Below are positions 54,002-63,574 of a stretch of DNA of 64,000 bases, one piece after another. The notes under the pieces are model-generated. The model ran no database searches. It was not told where the DNA came from and worked only from the letters and a program-made list of their open reading frames with translations. The first letter of the stretch is position 1. Every line of letters begins with the position of its first letter. A program made the position numbers and the translations under genes. Source of the stretch: Bacteroidetes bacterium MedPE-SWsnd-G2 (GTDB lineage Bacteria; Bacteroidota; Bacteroidia; Flavobacteriales; Flavobacteriaceae); assembly GCA_001874335.1 (NCBI GenBank), contig MPDE01000008.1, forward strand, positions 62,001 to 126,000, given 5' to 3'.

Positions 54002-57000
54002 TTATCTTCGGTTAGGAGAATTAGAAACAATTTTCTTAGTCACCTTACCTTGACTTGTTGTCACCTGTACATAGAACATTTGATTAGCAGTTCTGGATAA
54101 GTCGAAAGTAACTATTCCGTTTGAACCTTTAATGTAGTTCTTGTCAGTTTGAGCAGAGATCAATAATCCTTTAGTATCAAATAACTCTACTGTTACATCT
54201 GTTTTGAAATCGAAGTTATAAGCAATGTTCACTTCTTTGTCAAAAGGAACTGGATAAGCAGTGAAGTCTAACTCAACTTCCGTCTTAACAATTTCTTTAT
54301 CAAATATAGTGTGCTCAATAATTTCACTTTTACTTCTCGCCACTTGACCAGGAACAGACCATGTATATGTAATATCACATTCAGAAGAATTACCTGCAGC
54401 ATCAGTTGCTGTAAATGTTCTTACTAAAGTATAATCCATTTGTTGCGGACCTGCAATTTCAAAGTTTGAAATTGTTAAGGATGCATCTCCTAAAATACCA
54501 TCAGAACTATTAATTCTAAATCCGATTACATCTCCTGGCGCACAATTAACAGACACGAATCCTGATTGTGAATCAGCTCCACCATTATCGGTTAATTGAA
54601 TTGCAGCACCATTTAGGTAGAAAGCTGGATCTAACCCTGGGCCATCAACATCATTTGTTAAATAATCCCAGTTAAATGAATACACACCGCCATACAAACA
54701 TGTTATTGTTGCTTGTGTGTTTATATCATCTTGACCATCATCATTACCCGTTACTACCATTGTAGAGGCGTTGATTGATACACTACCGTCGGCTCCACCA
54801 AGATCTACACTCCAATTACCTGGCGCATAGTCTCCTGTGAACCCTTGAATTGGTTGTCCGTCAGATAATACATATCCTAAGTCATCTGAGTAGTCTGAAG
54901 TATATCCAGGCTCATCACAGTTATCAGAGTAATGTACTTGGTCAACTACACCATATGGCAATCCATCTTGATCTAAATCTGGATCAAATCCAAAGTCTAC
55001 ACCTGGCTCACATTTAATGTCTGGTGCCGTAGCATCATTAACAATAAAGGTTGCAGTTGTACTTGTTGAATTACCACATTCATCGGTAGCAGTAAACGTT
55101 ACTGTTGTACCTGCTTGCTCATATGGTTCAGAGCTTACAAAGAATGATAACTGATTTTCATAGTGATGATTAATGTCAGTACAATTAGCCCCATCTAATT
55201 CTGGTGCTATTGTAAAAGGACCCTCTACATTACATTGGCCAAAAGGGAATCCCCAGTCTTGTAATTCGGTATCCTCATCAGCATGAACAATACAACAATT
55301 ACTAGATACAGTCGTTAAATATGTTTTTCCAACAAATTGATCAGCGATATCATGTAATACACTTTGTGGTGCTAATTCAAATCCAGGTGCTGCAGCGCCA
55401 TTTGTACCATCTAAATAGTATAAATACCCGTTGTGCATTACCATAGCTTCCTCAACATACTCCACATTATTGTTAATTGTTGAACCACAAGGGTCTAACT
55501 GACAATCATTATTAACTCTGTATACATAGTTTAAATGAACTCCACCACAGTTATCTTGAACATAAGCAGACGTTGCCGTGTTATTTCCACCTGGATCATT
55601 ATATCCTGGATTACCTAAATCTACTTTATGATCATGCGCAATCTCTGCACAACCTGCAATTCCCCAAGTAGAACTCCAACTCATATTGTTCATCCCAACC
55701 GGATCTGTAGAAATAATATAATCTTCTGGATCTCCACCAAATAATAAGGCAGCAGCTTCTTGTCCGGTGTAAACAGCTGGATTAGTTGTCCAAAATGGTC
55801 CAGCATGAGTGTCAAATGTTCCAACATACTCAGGTATGCCAGGCCCATCAGAATCTTCACATTGGTACATCCAAGTTACTTCACCACAATTATCAGTAGC
55901 TGTAGCTCCACCATGATTATCTAACCATGCTTGGAAATCAGCCAGGTAATCAGATTCAGTATCTGACGCCCCATCTTGAGCTTCAGCAGTCATTTCTGGA
56001 TCAACACTATCTTGAACAGTTATTAAACCTGTTGATTTAACTTCTCTTCCACAAGCGTCAGTTGCAGTAAACTCTACTTCAAGAGAACCACATCCATCTT
56101 CTAACTTATCAAAATCATTAGACCATACTAATGCGTTACATAAGTAACTTGCACTTGCACCACCATTGGCAGCTAACCATGCTTCTACTTCAGCAACATT
56201 ACCAGCGCCATCACATTGTACGATTAATTCACCTGCTGCAACAGCAATTGATGGTAATACATCTTCAGAAATGTTGATGTTTACTACATATGCACCTTCA
56301 GATACATTGTCACATCCATCAACCGCTTCGAAAGACACAGAAAGGTCTCTTGAGCAATCTCCTGCAACACCGTTATCAACAGCTCTTACTCTATACGTCA
56401 CATCTTGACAGTCGTCAAAACAAGGCTCAATTACAGCCTGAATTGCAGCTAAATCAACATTTGCAACTGAGAATAAGTTGTTTAAATCTAACTCATCACC
56501 TACTTCAAGAGCAATTACTGCAGCTTCAGAAGAAGGACAAGCAGCGCCTAAACTTGTAAATAGATTAATTTGAGCAGCTTCACAATCAGCAAATACCGGA
56601 GCATCTTGATCCATACCTTGATAATTTACTTTAACATAACCGCCATCGTTTCCACAATCATCAGTAATGATATATTCGTAAACTACAATCCAGCTACAAT
56701 CGTCTCCGTAAGTTTTAGTGATTTTCTCAACGTTTACGTTGTCACCAAGTTCTTCACCACAGTTATCAGAGTATAATACTCTAATCTCATCTTCAGAAGG
56801 ACCTTCTGGTGCATCAGCTAAACAAGCGTTTATCTCATTTTCACCATCTGGAACAACTCCTACTAATACAGGTGCTTCAGAATCATAACCACTTAAGTTA
56901 ATTACGATATCATCGGCTTGGTTTCCACATCCGTCAGCAACGCTAAAAGCGAATACTCCAGACCATCCACAATCGCCATCATCAGAGAAGCCATTGTTTT

Positions 57001-60000
57001 CATTGGCAGTAACAAGTACACCTGCTACACCAGCATCTGCAAATATCGCAACGATGTCATCAATTTTTGGTACGTGCAATTCTTCTAAAGCAGCTATTTC
57101 TGAGTAACATGCGTTGATGTCACTTAAAGTGTTTGATAAAGATGCTGAAACTAATTCTGGAGCAGTTTGATCGCTACCATTATAGTATACTTTTACAGTA
57201 TCTGCATAGTTTCCACAGTCATCATATACTTCATAGCTGTACATTACAGCCCAATCACAATCATCACCTAATATTTTTTCAGATTTGATAACATTTACGT
57301 TACCACAGTTATCTTCATAAATAGCGGCAATTTCTTCTGCAGTTGGTCCTAATGGGATATCAGCTAAAACAGCGTCTACATTAGACTCTCCTTGTGGTAA
57401 AGGTAATACCATTACCGGAGCAGTTTCATCTATTACTGTTACCGTAATTGAAGCTGTAATTTCACGTCCACAATCGTCAACAAATGACCAGTTTACGTCA
57501 AATTCTCCACAGCTACCAACAAATTCATCAGCAACGCCATCAACTTCACCTTCAATTACACATCCGCCAGTTCCCTGGTTAGAATATGATAATTTACCTG
57601 GATCGAAGCTTGCTAAATCTTCACAAGCAATCTCGTAATCTGAAACGTCTTCAAACTGAGCCATTGGTGCAGGTAAAACAGTAATTGTTTGTTTGTAAGC
57701 AATCTCTCTGTCACAGTTATCTTTAAAGAACCAGTCTACATAAAGAGTACCTCCACATTCGTCAAACTCACCTGTTAATTCACCCATTACTTCTCCTTCT
57801 ATTGCACAGTACTGAGTACCACCATTAGAATAAGATAAGTAACCAGCTTCAAATGTATTAGCGTCTTCACAAGAAATCTCTAAATCATCAACTGGAGCCC
57901 ATTCTGCCATTGGAGCAGCTTGAACAGTAATTACTTTTTGAGCGTTTATTGTACGTCCACAATCATCGGTATAAGACCAATCTTCGTAAAGTGTTCCACC
58001 ACATTCTGTGTAAGAACCACTTAATTGTCCCATTACTTCACCAGAGATTATACAGCTTCCTGTACCTTCATTAGAATAACCTAAATAACTAACTTGGTAG
58101 TCATTAGCTTCTTCACAAGTAATTTCCATATCCTCAACATTGTCAAACTCAGCCATTGGTGCCGGTAAAACAGTAATTGTTTGCTTGTATGAAATATCTC
58201 TATCACAGTTATCTTTAAAGAACCAGTCTACGTATAACGTACCACCACATTCGTCAAATTCACCTGATAATTCACCTTCTGCTTCACCTTCTATAGTACA
58301 ATATTGAGTTCCCCCATTAGAGTAACCTAAAACTCCAGCTTCAAAGCTATTCGCTTCTTCACAAGAAATCTCTAAGTCATCAATAGGATCCCATTCTGCC
58401 ATCGGCGCTGGTAATACAGTAATAACTTTTTGGGCAGCAATAGTACGTCCACAATCGTCAACGAAATACCAATCTTCATATAGTGTACCACCACATTCAG
58501 AGTATTGTCCACTTACGTATCCCATTACTTCACCTTCTATCACACAGCTTCCTGTACCTTGGTTAGAATACCCTAAGTATCCAGCTTGGTAATCATTTGC
58601 TTCTTCACAAGTGATTTCCATATCCACAACTGGCGCAAATTCGGCCATTGGAGCTGGTAATACAGTAATTGTTTGTTTAGAAGAAATATCTCTATCACAA
58701 TCATCTTTAAATGTCCAATCAATGTAAAGTTCTCCTCCACATTCATCAAATTCTCCAGATAATTCACCCATTACTTTACCACTAATTTCGCAACCTTCAG
58801 TTCCTCCATTAGAATAATCTAATTCGTAAGCTTCAAATGAGTTTGCTTCTTCACAAGAGATTTCAATATTCTCAACTGGTGCAAATTCAGCCATTGGTGC
58901 TGGCATAACAGTAATAACTTTTTGAGCGTTTATTGTACGTCCACAATCGTCAGTAAAACTGTAATCTTCATATAAAGTACCACCACATTCGTCGTAATTT
59001 CCTGAAACAACACCTAAGGCGTCACCTTCAATTACACAGCTTCCTGTACCTTGATTTGAGTACCAAAGGTATCCAGCTTGATAAACGTTAGCTTCTTCAC
59101 AAGAAATTTCAACATCCACAGGCTCATTAAATTCAGCCATTGGCGCTGGTAAAACAGTAATAGTTTGTTGTGCAGAAATATCTCTGTCACATTCATCTTT
59201 AAAGAACCAATCAACATAAAGTGTACCTCCACATTCATCGAAATCTCCAGATAATTCACCCATTACTTCACCGCTAATATCACAACCTTCAGTTCCATCG
59301 TTAGAGTATGATAAATAATAAGCTTCAAAAGAATTAGCGTCTTCACAAGAAATTTCTAAATCTTCAACTGGCTCAAATTCAGCTTGAGGAGCTGGATCAA
59401 CTTTTACTTGTTGCGTATGTGTGATTGTTCTACCACAGTAATCTGTAAATGACCAATCAACAAATAATAATCCACCACACTCTGTATATTCACCAGATAA
59501 TTGTCCCATTACTTCACCACTAATTTCACAACCTTGAGTTCCGCCATTAGTATATGATAAGTAACCAGCTTCAAATACATTAGCTTCTTCACAGCTAATT
59601 GAAATATGATCAATACCATCAAATTGAGCTTGAGGTGCTGGTAAAACTGTTATAATTTTTTGAGCATCAATTGTTCTTCCACAATCATCAGTATAAGACC
59701 AATCTTGGTAAAGTGTTCCTCCACATTCATTAAACTCTCCACTTACATAACCCATTACTTGTCCACTAATGTCACAGCTTTCAGATCCACCGTTTGAGTA
59801 CGATAAATAACTAGCTTCGTAATCATTTGCTTCTTCACAAGTGATTTCCATATCTATAACATCTTCGAATACTGCTTCAGGAGCTGATAATACTGTTATA
59901 GTTTGTTTATGAGAAATTTCTCTTTCACAATCATCTTTAAAGTACCAATCTACGTATAGTGTTCCTCCACATTCATCATACTCACCAGATAATTCGCCAG

Positions 60001-63000
60001 CAACTTCACCGCTAATTTCACATCCTTGAGTACCTCCGTTAGAGTAACCTAAATTACTTGGAGCAAAAGCATTTGCTTCTTCACATGTTAATTCTAAATC
60101 ATCAATAGCGTCAAACTCAGCCATTGGAGCAGGAACAACAGTTACTACTTTTTGAGCTGTTATTGTACGATCACAGTTATCAGTAAATGACCAATCAACA
60201 TATAATGTACCACCGCACTCATCAAAATCTCCTGATAAAACGCCATCAACAGATCCTTCTATAGCACAAGGACCAGACTCACCGTTAGAGTAGCTTAAGC
60301 TATCTGCCGAGAATGATAAAGCTTCTTCACAAGTAATCTCCATATCTTCAACGTTATCAAACGACGCTTGATCTGAAGGAGAAACTGTTATAACCTTTTG
60401 ATAAGAAATATCTCTATCACAATCATCTTTAAAGAACCAATCAACGTAAAGTGTACCTCCACATTCGTCGTACTCTCCAGATAGCACACCATCTACAGAA
60501 CCTTCAATTGCACATGCTCCTGAACCTCCATTAGAATAATCTAAAGATGTTGCCATATATAAGGCTGCTTGCTCACAAGAAATTGTGATATTTGCAGGAG
60601 GGTTTACAAATTCAGCTCCTGGAGCTGGTAATACTGTAATAACTTTTTGAGCAGTAATTTCTCTACCACAATCATCTGTGTAAGACCAATCTTGGTAAAG
60701 TGTTCCACCACATTCATCGTAGCTTCCACTCATAACACCCATTACTTCACCGCTAATATCGCAAGCTTCAGAACCTTGGTTAGAGTAAGCTAAGTATCCT
60801 GCTTGATATTCGTTAGCTTCTTCACAAGAAAGCTCAACGTCTTCTACATTTTCGAACTCAGCCATTGGTGCTGGTAATACGTTAATTGTTTGTTTAGCTG
60901 AGATATCTCTATCACAATCATCTTTATATAACCAATCAACATATAATGTACCACCACATTCGTCAAATTCTCCAGATAATACACCCATTACTTCACCGCT
61001 AATTTCACAATCTTGAGTTCCGCCATTAGTATATGATAAATAACCAGCAGCAAAAGAGTTTGCTTCTTCACAAGAGATTTCTAAATCGTCTACTGGAGCA
61101 AATTCTGCCATTGGAGCAGGCATTACCGTGATTACTTTTTGAGCATCAATTGTTCTTCCACAATCATCAGTGTAAGACCAATCAACATAAAGAGTACCTC
61201 CACATTCATCAAATTCTCCACTTAACAATCCATCAACACTACCTGAAATATCACATGCATCAGTACCTGCATTTGAATACCCTAAACTACCAGCTTGGTA
61301 ATCATTAGCTTCTTCGCAAGAAATCTCCATGTCTTCAACGTTCTCAAAAGATGCTTGAGGCGCTGGTAAAACAGTAATTGTTTGTTTTACTGCTATATCC
61401 CTATCGCAATCGTCTTTATAGAACCAGTCAACGTATAATTCACCACCACATTCATCAAATGAACCTGATAACTCACCCATTACTTCACCGCTGATTTCGC
61501 AATCTTGAGTTCCTCCATTAGTATATGATAAATATCCTGCAGCAAAAGAATTTGCTTCTTCACAAGAGATTTCTAAATCGTCTACTGGTGCAAATTCTGC
61601 CATTGGAGCAGGCATTACTGAAATTACTTTTTGAGCATTAATTGTTCTTCCACAATTATCTGTATAAGACCAATCTTGGTATAATGTACCACCACATTCA
61701 TCAAATGATCCACTAACAACACCAGTTACAGAACCAGAGATTTCACAACCTTCTGTTCCTCCGTTTGTATATGCTAAATCACTTGCAGAATAATCATTTG
61801 CTTCTTCACATGAAATTTCCATGTCTTCAACATTATCAAAAGTAGCTTGTGGAGCCGGTAAAACCGTTACAATTACTTTTGCTGAAATATCTCTATCACA
61901 ATTATCTTTAAAGAACCAGTCTACAGACAATGTTCCTCCACATTCATTGTAATCACCAGTAAGTTCTCCCATAACTTTTCCAGAAATTTCACAATTTCCG
62001 GAATCACCATTAGAATAATCTAATTCCCATGCTTCAAAAGCGTTAGCTTCTTCACATGTGATTTCCATATCTTGAACTGGATCAAATTCTGCCATTGGAG
62101 CAGGTAATACTTCGATATTTTGAGTATGAGAAATAGCTCTACCACATTCGTCTTCATAAGACCATGTCACAGATAATGCTCCTCCGCACTCGGTGTACGA
62201 ACCAGATAACTCACCTACTGCTTCACCATTAATTGCACAAGCGCCTTCTGATACGCCGTTAGAGTATCCTAAGTTAGCTGGCTGATAGCCTTCTGCTTCA
62301 GCACAAGACATAGACATGTCTTGAGGTAATTCTGAAAATTCAGCTGCAGGTGCAGGGTTAATAGTTACAGTTTGACTTTGTGAAACTTCATTTCCACAGT
62401 TATCTGTAGCGGTCCATGTTCTTACGAACACACCACCTTCACAAGCTAATCCTACTTGGCTATCATCATTTACTACTACAATATCAACATTGTCATCGCA
62501 GTTATCTGAAGCCGTTGGAGCACTAGCTCCTTTAGGATTACTTGGTATTTCATCTATACAATCTACTGTTATGTCATCTGGAATTCCAGCTAATACTGGG
62601 TCTTCCGAATCAAATCCTTGGTATACCAATTGGAACTCATCTGCAACGTTACCACAACTATCTGCAACAGTATAACTGTAAACGGCTAACCATTTACAAT
62701 CAGTTCCTTTTGAATTTGCTGTTTTTGTAACAACAACATCACCACAATTATCGCTGTATAAAGCTGCGATATCATCTTCTGATGGTCCTTGAGATTTATC
62801 TTCAAAACATAAATTTAAACCTACTTCCCCTTGAGGTAATGCAGTTTTTGGTAATAAATTTGGTGCTTCAGAATCTCCACCACTATACTCTACTTTGATA
62901 TCATCAGAAACTATGTTTCCACAGTCATCTGTTACCTCATAAGAGTAAGTCACTTGCCAGCTGCAATTATCACCAGAAGGGCTTCCAGTTTTAACTACAT

Positions 63001-63568
63001 TGACATTGTTACAGTTGTCAGAAAACAACAATCCAATTTCTTCAGCAGAAGGCCCTTCAGGTATGTCATCATAACATAAATTAAGGTCTACTCCTCCATC
63101 AGGAATTGACGCTCCATCATTTAATTCTGGAGCTGTCTGATCACTACCATCGTAAGTGATTTTGATTTGGTCTACAATGTCTGAACACTCATCATATCCT
63201 TGGATATCATAAGTATATTCTACACTCCAGCTACAATCATCACCAATAGGTGTACCAGACTTAGTAACAGTTACTTTACTACATGAATTGACATAAATCA
63301 TTTCAATGTCTTCAACTGTTGGCCCCTCTGGTACATCGTCAAAACACAGATTTAACTCTGTACTTCTTTGCGCATCTTGAAGGCTTTGAACAGCCGTTTT
63401 CAAATTTTGTGCATACATTGAACTAACTCCAAACATAAAAAGCATTGCAAAGCTTAAAGCCTTGATGCCTCCCATTTGTTTCGATAAAATTTCAATGCTA
63501 CAACACGATAATTTAGTAGCAGATTTCCAGAACCTGGACCTCCCACTACTTCGGGTAAAATTGCTCAT
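54002..63568 (-). CDS. Giant T9SS-exported repeat protein, adhesin-like
   Basis: From the ATG at 63568 (MSNFTRSSGRSRF; an ATG two codons upstream at 63574 is the alternative) the protein has 3188 residues. Its signal region is long (about 53 residues, hydrophobic core ALSFAMLFMFGVSSMYA). Counting from 63574, the mature part starts with three about 80-residue modules (LNLCxDDxPEGP ... DCSW ... CGN ... GxDxxAP), then an HYR-like module (329-413), then 20 units of about 82 residues (414 to about 2050), three more modules of the first type, and mixed modules with aromatic, glycine-rich loops. It ends with a T9SS C-terminal sorting domain (FTAYPVPFDKEVNIAYNF ... GKVTKKIVSNSPNRR). It is very acidic. 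It is probably carried across the outer membrane by T9SS and attached to the surface; adhesion is an inference from the architecture. Confidence 0.92.
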   Translation of the reverse strand: MSNFTRSSGRSRFWKSATKLSCCSIEILSKQMGGIKALSFAMLFMFGVSSMYAQNLKTAVQSLQDAQRSTELNLCFDDVPEGPTVEDIEMIYVNSCSKVTVTKSGTPIGDDCSWSVEYTYDIQGYDECSDIVDQIKITYDGSDQTAPELNDGASIPDGGVDLNLCYDDIPEGPSAEEIGLLFSDNCNNVNVVKTGSPSGDNCSWQVTYSYEVTDDCGNIVSDDIKVEYSGGDSEAPNLLPKTALPQGEVGLNLCFEDKSQGPSEDDIAALYSDNCGDVVVTKTANSKGTDCKWLAVYSYTVADSCGNVADEFQLVYQGFDSEDPVLAGIPDDITVDCIDEIPSNPKGASAPTASDNCDDNVDIVVVNDDSQVGLACEGGVFVRTWTATDNCGNEVSQSQTVTINPAPAAEFSELPQDMSMSCAEAEGYQPANLGYSNGVSEGACAINGEAVGELSGSYTECGGALSVTWSYEDECGRAISHTQNIEVLPAPMAEFDPVQDMEITCEEANAFEAWELDYSNGDSGNCEISGKVMGELTGDYNECGGTLSVDWFFKDNCDRDISAKVIVTVLPAPQATFDNVEDMEISCEEANDYSASDLAYTNGGTEGCEISGSVTGVVSGSFDECGGTLYQDWSYTDNCGRTINAQKVISVMPAPMAEFAPVDDLEISCEEANSFAAGYLSYTNGGTQDCEISGEVMGELSGSFDECGGELYVDWFYKDDCDRDIAVKQTITVLPAPQASFENVEDMEISCEEANDYQAGSLGYSNAGTDACDISGSVDGLLSGEFDECGGTLYVDWSYTDDCGRTIDAQKVITVMPAPMAEFAPVDDLEISCEEANSFAAGYLSYTNGGTQDCEISGEVMGVLSGEFDECGGTLYVDWLYKDDCDRDISAKQTINVLPAPMAEFENVEDVELSCEEANEYQAGYLAYSNQGSEACDISGEVMGVMSGSYDECGGTLYQDWSYTDDCGREITAQKVITVLPAPGAEFVNPPANITISCEQAALYMATSLDYSNGGSGACAIEGSVDGVLSGEYDECGGTLYVDWFFKDDCDRDISYQKVITVSPSDQASFDNVEDMEITCEEALSFSADSLSYSNGESGPCAIEGSVDGVLSGDFDECGGTLYVDWSFTDNCDRTITAQKVVTVVPAPMAEFDAIDDLELTCEEANAFAPSNLGYSNGGTQGCEISGEVAGELSGEYDECGGTLYVDWYFKDDCEREISHKQTITVLSAPEAVFEDVIDMEITCEEANDYEASYLSYSNGGSESCDISGQVMGYVSGEFNECGGTLYQDWSYTDDCGRTIDAQKIITVLPAPQAQFDGIDHISISCEEANVFEAGYLSYTNGGTQGCEISGEVMGQLSGEYTECGGLLFVDWSFTDYCGRTITHTQQVKVDPAPQAEFEPVEDLEISCEDANSFEAYYLSYSNDGTEGCDISGEVMGELSGDFDECGGTLYVDWFFKDECDRDISAQQTITVLPAPMAEFNEPVDVEISCEEANVYQAGYLWYSNQGTGSCVIEGDALGVVSGNYDECGGTLYEDYSFTDDCGRTINAQKVITVMPAPMAEFAPVENIEISCEEANSFEAYELDYSNGGTEGCEISGKVMGELSGEFDECGGELYIDWTFKDDCDRDISSKQTITVLPAPMAEFAPVVDMEITCEEANDYQAGYLGYSNQGTGSCVIEGEVMGYVSGQYSECGGTLYEDWYFVDDCGRTIAAQKVITVLPAPMAEWDPIDDLEISCEEANSFEAGVLGYSNGGTQYCTIEGEAEGELSGEFDECGGTLYVDWFFKDNCDRDISYKQTITVLPAPMAEFDNVEDMEITCEEANDYQVSYLGYSNEGTGSCIISGEVMGQLSGSYTECGGTLYEDWSYTDDCGRTINAQKVITVQAAPMAEWAPVDDLEISCEDANTFEAGYLSYSNGGTQYCAIEGEVMGELTGEFDECGGTLYVDWFFKDNCDREIAYKQTITVLPAPMAQFEDVSDYEIACEDLASFDPGKLSYSNQGTGGCVIEGEVDGVADEFVGSCGEFDVNWSFVDDCGREITASITVTVIDETAPVMVLPLPQGESNVDAVLADIPLGPTAEEIAAIYEDNCGNVNVIKSEKILGDDCDWAVMYSYEVYDDCGNYADTVKVYYNGSDQTAPELVSASLSNTLSDINACYSEIAALEELHVPKIDDIVAIFADAGVAGVLVTANENNGFSDDGDCGWSGVFAFSVADGCGNQADDIVINLSGYDSEAPVLVGVVPDGENEINACLADAPEGPSEDEIRVLYSDNCGEELGDNVNVEKITKTYGDDCSWIVVYEYIITDDCGNDGGYVKVNYQGMDQDAPVFADCEAAQINLFTSLGAACPSSEAAVIALEVGDELDLNNLFSVANVDLAAIQAVIEPCFDDCQDVTYRVRAVDNGVAGDCSRDLSVSFEAVDGCDNVSEGAYVVNINISEDVLPSIAVAAGELIVQCDGAGNVAEVEAWLAANGGASASYLCNALVWSNDFDKLEDGCGSLEVEFTATDACGREVKSTGLITVQDSVDPEMTAEAQDGASDTESDYLADFQAWLDNHGGATATDNCGEVTWMYQCEDSDGPGIPEYVGTFDTHAGPFWTTNPAVYTGQEAAALLFGGDPEDYIISTDPVGMNNMSWSSTWGIAGCAEIAHDHKVDLGNPGYNDPGGNNTATSAYVQDNCGGVHLNYVYRVNNDCQLDPCGSTINNNVEYVEEAMVMHNGYLYYLDGTNGAAAPGFELAPQSVLHDIADQFVGKTYLTTVSSNCCIVHADEDTELQDWGFPFGQCNVEGPFTIAPELDGANCTDINHHYENQLSFFVSSEPYEQAGTTVTFTATDECGNSTSTTATFIVNDATAPDIKCEPGVDFGFDPDLDQDGLPYGVVDQVHYSDNCDEPGYTSDYSDDLGYVLSDGQPIQGFTGDYAPGNWSVDLGGADGSVSINASTMVVTGNDDGQDDINTQATITCLYGGVYSFNWDYLTNDVDGPGLDPAFYLNGAAIQLTDNGGADSQSGFVSVNCAPGDVIGFRINSSDGILGDASLTISNFEIAGPQQMDYTLVRTFTATDAAGNSSECDITYTWSVPGQVARSKSEIIEHTIFDKEIVKTEVELDFTAYPVPFDKEVNIAYNFDFKTDVTVELFDTKGLLISAQTDKNYIKGSNGIVTFDLSRTANQMFYVQVTTSQGKVTKKIVSNSPNRR
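57430..62335 (-). repeat. Twenty tandem 246-bp units encoding 82-residue four-cysteine modules
   Basis: Each unit encodes roughly xVxDxEISCEEANxFxAGYLSY(S/T)NGGT..C.ISGEVMGxLSGxFDECGGTLYVDW, then a subtype-specific end. Cysteines fall near positions 10, 31, 48 and 62, so two disulfides per unit are likely. Units alternate between a 'CDRDIS-KQTITVLPAP' end (units 2, 4, 6, 8, 10, 13, 15, 17, 19) and a 'CGRTI-AQKVITVMPAP' end (3, 5, 7, 11, 14, 16, 18, 20). Units 9 and 12 are intermediate, and unit 1 is divergent. The effective period is therefore a 164-residue pair. Confidence 0.85.
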
Positions 63569-63574
63569 AAACAT

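Follow-up and report, generated by a model that had tools for sequence, protein, structure and literature searches.

The 64,000-nucleotide stretch of DNA analysed here (the window) comes from Bacteroidetes bacterium MedPE-SWsnd-G2, a member of the Flavobacteriaceae (contig MPDE01000008.1, positions 62,001 to 126,000). Its minus strand carries a giant open reading frame (ORF) whose product contains an array of twenty units with four cysteines each. These units belong to two subtypes, A and B, in alternating order. The ORF and its array are laid out as follows.

54002..63574, minus strand: giant ORF, 3190 amino acids
57431..62356, minus strand: array of 20 four-Cys units, residues 407-2048, from u00 (62105-62356) to u19 (57431-57673)
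59642..62104, minus strand: u01-u10, with A = u01, u03, u05, u07, u09 and B = u02, u04, u06, u08, u10
59396..59641, minus strand: u11, off-type unit with an A-like first half and a B-like second half; phase slip
57674..59395, minus strand: u12-u18 in shifted phase, with A = u12, u14, u16, u18 and B = u13, u15, u17
57431..57673, minus strand: u19, divergent final unit in which SCG replaces ECGG; a similar closing unit is present in the related loci L031, L030, L040, and L039

The two unit types and where they differ

A sequence-only reading of the window had placed a twenty-unit array of four-cysteine modules at 57430-62335. The array is real, and its first unit reaches 21 bases further out. 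Exactly four cysteines are present in all 20 units, and 17 units are 82 amino acids long, while the others have 84, 83, and 81 residues. In Tandem Repeats Finder, a 492-bp period gives 69-77% matches versus 64-66% for 246 bp. Among the interior units u01-u18, the mean protein identity is 0.70 at lag 2, as compared with 0.59 at lag 1 and 0.60 at lag 3. The whole-unit alternation score was reached by 1 of 5000 order shuffles of the 20 units and by 0 of 5000 shuffles of u01-u18. When the 20 units were scored by segment, 0/5000 shuffles reached the value of the first half, the final 16 residues likewise gave 0/5000, and the middle is weaker at 283/5000; the first halves alternate too, as had been claimed. 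Read from u00 to u19, residue 66 is EKTKTKTKTKTTKTKVKTKV. Its K/non-K state switches at 18 of the 19 junctions, a value attained by 8 of 100,000 shuffles. The two subtypes therefore alternate beyond chance. The alternation is imperfect: the extra off-type u11 shifts the phase, and u00, u07, u08, and u19 are partly atypical. The A and B labels were assigned by position after the slip at u11 had been seen, and the residue and codon tables of A (9 units) and B (8 units) set aside u00, u11, and u19. Adjacent window units have 51-66% protein identity, while units of the same type reach 91%. The units are very acidic in the window and in its relatives alike, with a mean net charge of about -10 to -15 per unit depending on array and class (window A, -14.8; window B, -13.5).

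What kind of domain is this unit? An Ig-like beta-sandwich is confidently predicted by the AlphaFold2 model of three units (predicted local distance difference test score, pLDDT, 95.8; predicted template modelling score, pTM, 0.74). The Pfam model HYR_4C (PF23237) matches 17 of the 20 units at E<=1, and the other three have no match. The best single-unit match is that of u04 (E 3.1e-4, 21.3 bits), which lies below the cut-off of 27 bits; bit scores were available for five units and range from 13.7 to 21.3. In a profile comparison, the array unit matched a set of HYR_4C units, one of which belongs to the giant protein itself and ten of which are encoded by another giant gene of this contig, with a probability of 83.6 and an E of 8.1e-6. 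Thus, the proposal that the unit is not a named domain holds with regard to the family cut-off, but these profiles suggest that the unit is distantly related to HYR_4C. Neither the profiles of one and of three units nor the whole protein had a significant match among PDB sequences (best E 0.17). Structural matches found with Foldseek and VIA include tandem Ig-like, cadherin, and RTX-adhesin chains, none of which stands out as the best; the RTX adhesin 6xi1 has a Foldseek E of 1e-5 but a TM-score of 0.32-0.34. The profile and Foldseek checks suggested by the sequence-only reading thus pointed to a predicted Ig-like fold and an HYR_4C relative, without a clear best structural match. Kinship with GhpA of Aureispira (9fly) was considered and rejected (VIA Z 4.6 and a root-mean-square deviation of 10.4 over 203 residues, no better than unrelated rows). 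A literature search on HYR_4C, on the HYR domain with type IX secretion, and on HYR repeats in Bacteroidetes found nothing in a coverage that mostly leaves out subscription papers. Likewise, among the titles and starts of abstracts listed in wider searches, none describes the window array.

The clearest differences between A and B are near the end of the unit. In A, residue 66 is K, residues 70 and 72 are D/E, and residue 76 is mostly K. In B, the same positions are neutral: 66 is T/V, 70 mostly G, 72 mostly T, and 76 Q. The AlphaFold2 model places strands at residues 56-66 and 72-81. Across 264 units of 12 arrays, hydrophobic residues (Ala, Cys, and aromatics included) make up at least 95% of columns 59, 61, 63, 65, 73, 75, 79, and 81, but no more than 15% of columns 62, 64, 66, 70, 72, 74, 76, 78, and 80; column 77 is also polar and column 60 is mixed. 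The diagnostic positions 64, 66, 70, 72, 74, 76, and 78 belong to the polar set. From this register, I infer that most type-specific residues point outward from the last beta-hairpin of the predicted fold. The mean number of charged residues in this patch is 4.78 in A and 1.50 in B.

Age of the alternation and its spread among relatives

In the window, the synonymous codon identity is 0.567 between A and B units, 0.583 among B units, and 0.642 among A units, as compared with the 0.565 that codon usage within the array would give by chance at shared residues. Diagnostic residues are nevertheless nearly fixed: K66 is present in 9 of 9 A units, and Q76 and K77 in 8 of 8 B units. Since the synonymous sites are near saturation for A-B and B-B pairs while the type residues persist, the alternation appears to be old and the type-specific residues appear to have been kept. 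This persistence implies selection on the type-specific residues, although it does not alone establish a selected order.

The trees depend on the units included. In a joint tree of 15 typical window units and 46 units of relatives (u00, u07, u08, u11, u19, and most of the relatives' units were left out), the A units (8) form a starred clade with 100/99 and the B units (7) one with 99/97. In contrast, the DNA tree of all 20 window units has a weak A/B split (61/90) with u06 on the A side, and the protein tree of these 20 units alone did not recover the split. The expected two alternating clades are thus seen with the typical units and relatives, but are weak or missing with all 20 window units alone.

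It had also been proposed that the array grew by duplication of 492-bp blocks. A two-unit ancestor is likely, and a block copy might explain u15-u16 and u17-u18 (77% and 82%). However, the closest pair, u03 and u05, is 88% identical in nucleotides, while the neighbouring pairs u02/u04 and u04/u06 are only 76% and 69% identical. Because the similarity of u03 and u05 is unmatched by their neighbours, one unit was probably copied onto a position of the same type, rather than a 492-bp block. Pure block growth is therefore an incomplete account of this array.

Is the alternation found in other genomes? A profile search gave 73 loci in named genomes, from the best 80 of 85 relatives (the loci are referred to here by L numbers), and unit matches were present in 6 of 60 related whole genomes. 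The closest units among the named records are from Flavobacteriaceae such as Meridianimaribacter and Psychroserpens. Ten ORFs, including that of the window, carry both an N-terminal cap and a sorting-domain match. Their unit matches number 5 in L085, 15 in L038, 19 in L051, 20 in the window, 20 in L066, 21 in L039, 23 in L041, 25 in L056, 26 in L030, and 40 in L031, where the window count omits one weak extra match downstream and single matches in the other ORFs may be weak or doubled (L039). The cap is 46-50% identical in nine of the ten ORFs (the window, as the reference, is counted among them) and 37% in L085. Conserved caps around 5 to 40 units thus define a family with fixed ends and a variable unit number; this variation was observed between species. 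Array counts are not species counts, as L027, L029, and L045 are pieces of one genome and L032 and L034 are pieces of another. Many arrays end at contig ends, and the assembly of repeats from short reads is possibly wrong in places.

The order tests cover arrays of at least 8 units, and the test of residue 76 covers those with at least 3 K and at least 3 non-K units. Alternation of the C-terminal segment was found at <=10/1000 shuffles in 6 of 21 arrays with at least 8 contiguous units. At residue 76, K and non-K alternate in 7 of the 16 arrays tested, namely in the window and in six Psychroserpens genomes, at <=61/5000 shuffles. The score was reached by 0 of 5000 shuffles in L031 and L030, 1 in L042, 9 in L032, 13 in L027, 33 in L056, and 61 in the window; L038 (71/5000) and L043 (126/5000) are near misses, and the other seven arrays gave >=480/5000. 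The repeat text of Psychroserpens differs from that of the window, yet position 76 alternates. Column by column, in eight arrays chosen for their C-terminal alternation, column 76 alternates (z >1.8) in seven, and columns 62, 70, and 74 in five each. Within the unit, K76 is coupled most strongly to columns 62, 74, 78, and 25, and then to 60, 70, and 23. The half-and-half u11 had raised the idea that the junction between units is the true unit of alternation; it was rejected, since K76 couples to columns 23-25 more within its own unit than to those of the next.

The history of the two classes may differ between the lineages. The best DNA-level match in L031 has the same K76 class for 12 of 12 units of L029, 17 of 18 of L027, 26 of 29 of L042, and 25 of 25 of L030, and the K and non-K classes look inherited within Psychroserpens. 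Among the window units, a match with the same K76 state was found in L031 for 12 of 20. Placing the window A units and the Psychroserpens K units in one clade was rejected (p-AU 0.0037). The two types of the window thus do not seem to be simply the two lineages of Psychroserpens, with the caveat that trees of this kind are blurred by the exchange of units.

In eight Psychroserpens arrays (L031, L030, L056, L027, L042, L032, L040, and L035), the synonymous identity is 0.74-0.82 against an expectation of 0.58-0.60, and it is 0.77-0.82 in the six that alternate at K76; the corresponding value for all window units is 0.58 against 0.56. Thus, the units of these eight arrays share recent copying. 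The alternation z values at the amino-acid and synonymous levels, respectively, are 4.8 and 2.6 in the window, 5.5 and 1.7 in L031, 4.2 and 2.8 in L030, 4.1 and 1.4 in L056, 4.0 and 4.5 in L027, 2.4 and 1.5 in L042, 2.1 and 1.8 in L032, and 1.2 and 1.0 in L040; L035, L039, and L038 have amino-acid z values <=0.6 and synonymous ones <=1.0. The amino-acid z exceeds the synonymous z in five of the six Psychroserpens arrays, most clearly in L031 and L056. The synonymous test has less power than the amino-acid test.

Several other features were seen in the relatives. A landmark unit with GLL(F/Y)(V/I)DW and a QIK(V/I)N ending recurs in the arrays of L031, L042, L035, L030, L040, and L039, and its counterpart in the window is u11 (GLLFVDW, QQVKVD). 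Another landmark unit, QDI.I.C.LA.QY, recurs among homogenised neighbours in the same six loci. In L039 (ORF offset 7255), the loop leading to the second Cys of the unit at residues ~567-666 contains a long inserted (Asn-Gly)n stretch. The giant gene occurs twice in the same orientation in L051 (19 + 19 unit matches) and in L066 (20 + 4), where the second copy extends to the locus end.

Caps, export signal and genome setting

On both sides of the array, the giant protein has the following parts.

62357..63475, minus strand: N-terminal cap, residues 34-406; signal-like helix, three 4-Cys Ig-like modules, and one HYR_4C module
62360..62584, minus strand: HYR_4C module directly preceding the array, residues 331-405; 47.9-48.2 bits, cut-off 27
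56375..57430, minus strand: post-array modules, residues 2049-2400; 36-46% identity to relatives where the match follows the array
54026..54256, minus strand: type A C-terminal sorting domain of the type IX secretion system (T9SS), residues 3107-3183

Translation probably starts at codon 34 (63475), where the signal-peptide-like segment begins. The model of the N-terminal cap (pLDDT 87.2, pTM 0.61) resembles further Ig-like modules. The sorting domain passes both of its models marginally (PF18962, 27.3 bits with a cut-off of 27; TIGR04183, 24.1 bits with a cut-off of 23) and is 57-72% identical in relatives carrying one. NCBIfam includes a type B sorting-domain model, which is absent among the Pfam and NCBIfam matches of the giant protein at E<=1, and the type C model NF033708 gave an E of 0.34, below its cut-off. 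The T9SS translocon protein SprA is present in the genome (SprA_N, E 2.5e-123), which is 3.0 Mb in 19 contigs.

The flanking genes are ordinary: gyrA and a Clp-family ATPase gene on one side, and the histidine ammonia-lyase gene hutH on the other. The second gene upstream of the giant gene encodes a protein with a TlpA/ResA-like thiol-disulfide domain (L099:13102-14157, plus strand; below the models' cut-offs). Its location near a gene with 80 array cysteines is a matter of proximity only. The second giant gene on the same contig (L100:355-7476; C18:150354-157475) encodes at least 2374 amino acids and is broken off by the contig end. It holds many HYR_4C modules, and six of the ten aligned ones are the first module itself or 84-89% identical to it. 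Contig C12 opens inside a frame of 377 amino acids containing HYR_4C (C12:9-557), which may be the opposite end of a giant gene that the assembly split.

Possible meaning of the alternation and comparison with known systems

I tentatively favour, with somewhat less than even confidence, the reading that the giant protein is a T9SS-exported surface stalk of variable length with a selected two-faced chemistry. The protein would be exported by T9SS and anchored at the cell surface. A rod would be formed between the conserved caps by about 20 four-Cys Ig-like domains (relatives have about 5 to 40) with short Pro-Ala-Pro linkers connecting them, and the cysteines may pair as disulfides within the array. 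As the unit number varies while the ends are fixed, the length of such a rod could change. The outward face of the last hairpin would alternate between charged (A) and neutral (B) along the rod, and this old alternation would have been maintained by selection. If successive domains twist by about half a turn, the A patches would come to lie on one side and the B patches on the opposite side. Such a two-faced rod would suit side-by-side packing of stalks or the binding of one partner along one face. A further-reaching version, that the charge-patch alternation is a selected and convergent design which arose or was re-set separately in the window lineage (A/B) and in Psychroserpens (K76/non-K76), giving a rod that packs or binds along one side and was kept despite recombinational homogenisation, is rather unlikely.

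Several observations weigh against the proposed two-faced stalk. No adhesive tip was recognised in the sequence or the predicted model of the N-terminal cap. The structural matches are weak, with a query-normalised Foldseek TM-score of at most 0.38 among the 50 matches listed and a best VIA Z of 7.0 in a crowded list. Not all diagnostic columns follow the outward register (61, 75, and 77 are in the other one), and the types also differ at first-half positions such as 9, 11, 13, and 22-24. Whole-unit alternation was found in only 5 of 48 arrays with at least 8 matches at <=10/1000 shuffles (11 of 48 at <=50/1000); Saprospiraceae-named records contribute none of the five and three of the 11 (L088, L070, and L061), and alternation is absent from L046, a long array of 19 units in Saprospiraceae. 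Nine of the 16 arrays fail the K76 cut-off, and all positive relatives are Psychroserpens, where DNA-level matches between species mostly stay within the K or the non-K class, as expected of inherited sublineages. Synonymous sites also alternate in the window, L030, and L027, as neutral block duplication predicts, and L027 fits plain block duplication. Given this pattern in L027 and the weaker synonymous test, selection on unit order is considered likely, but no more than that.

Could the order be a historical by-product? A two-unit block may have been duplicated and then recombined mostly in register by even numbers of units, with A and B being equally good folds and their order having no function. 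I consider this doubtful, though a serious possibility. The 492-bp period, the two clades of the joint tree, the alternating synonymous sites, and the same-state matches of L029, L027, L042, and L030 units in L031 are all as it would have them, but it does not readily account for type residues that outlast near-saturation in the window, for one-unit copying with the phase kept (as suggested by u03/u05), or for the excess of amino-acid over synonymous alternation in L031 and L056. Outward positions 70 and 76 alternate in both the window and Psychroserpens even though the A and K units are not one clade, and the matching of window units to L031 (12 of 20) also speaks against this explanation. 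Alternatively, alternating subtypes may make neighbours less alike and so reduce domain swaps and wrong disulfides during periplasmic folding of the 80 array cysteines. According to the accessible portions of two papers (PMC8201768, PMC9704523), misfolding is believed to be held in check when adjacent domains differ in sequence, and the most similar neighbours in the window are 66% identical versus up to 91% within a type. Neighbour identity is indeed below random in the window (36/2000), L031 (2/2000), and L027 (14/2000). However, these are only 3 of 21 arrays, while in 7 of 21 it is higher than random (>=1950/2000 shuffles at or below), so that neighbour avoidance is not general. Moreover, neighbours are 96-100% identical in five arrays, and most diagnostic positions are in the outward register rather than in the core, which makes this explanation improbable. 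A third alternative, in which the unit, or the A-B pair, binds glycans or metal ions as ligands and the array acts as a multivalent binder instead of a spacer, is very improbable: the exposed charged patch of A, the very acidic units, and a cap that models as more Ig-like modules with no recognisable adhesive tip would suit it, but no significant match to a known binding domain was found in Pfam, NCBIfam, or PDB sequences, where sequence searches can miss such domains.

The two-faced stalk thus remains the reading that I prefer, in which the two sides of the rod may differ chemically. What makes it interesting is that alternation at an exposed patch recurs in a second lineage. Repetitive stalks of bacteria are commonly regarded as spacers, with recombination keeping their repeats similar. 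In the present family, the alternating surface patch outlasts near-saturation of synonymous sites in the window lineage and homogenisation in Psychroserpens. This offers a testable case in which the order of stalk domains, beyond stalk length, would be under selection, and a gene family (N-terminal cap, array of ~5-40 units, post-array modules, and T9SS domain) has been identified in Psychroserpens and relatives for such testing.

The array units resemble HYR_4C in having four Cys in matching order, a similar length, and a ..D.C.R/N.I..Q.I.V ending, and one true HYR_4C module adjoins the array on its N-terminal side. They differ in scoring below 27 bits, in a longer first loop, and in their two alternating subtypes. 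Among the giant surface proteins of Flavobacteriaceae, the gliding adhesin SprB is likewise a T9SS-exported fibre. However, SprB is described as a type B substrate carried by SprF in the accessible part of one paper (PMC12635249), while the window protein matches the type A domain and its gene sits among gyrA, the Clp-family ATPase gene, and hutH.

The closest concept is that of the Periscope Proteins (SHIRT domains of Sgo_0707, Rib, and SasG/Aap), which are long tandem-domain stalks with variable repeat numbers as far as the available sections of two papers describe them (PMC8201768, PMC9704523). The trait of kept ends with a variable repeat number is found in the ten two-cap ORFs, with the variation in unit number seen between species only. 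As to the rod-like monomer expected of such proteins, the pTM of 0.74 of the three-unit model is no more than suggestive. The Pro-Ala-Pro linker is shared with Sgo_0707, where it accompanies a limited bend and a significant twist according to the consulted excerpts (PMC8201768). In the same excerpts, adjacent SHIRT domains of Sgo_0707 share 82-100% identity (PMC8201768). In contrast, neighbours in the window are only 51-66% identical, while those in five of the relatives' arrays reach 96-100%; the window protein also differs in bearing a T9SS sorting domain. The E-G5 stalks of SasG/Aap mediate biofilm formation and are suggested to tether cells together, as stated in the accessible text (PMC9704523). 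Like the stalk proposed for the window protein, SasG/Aap is a surface stalk built from a two-domain repeat, but as presented there E and G5 are separate domain types (PMC9704523), whereas A and B share one predicted fold and differ in their surface residues.

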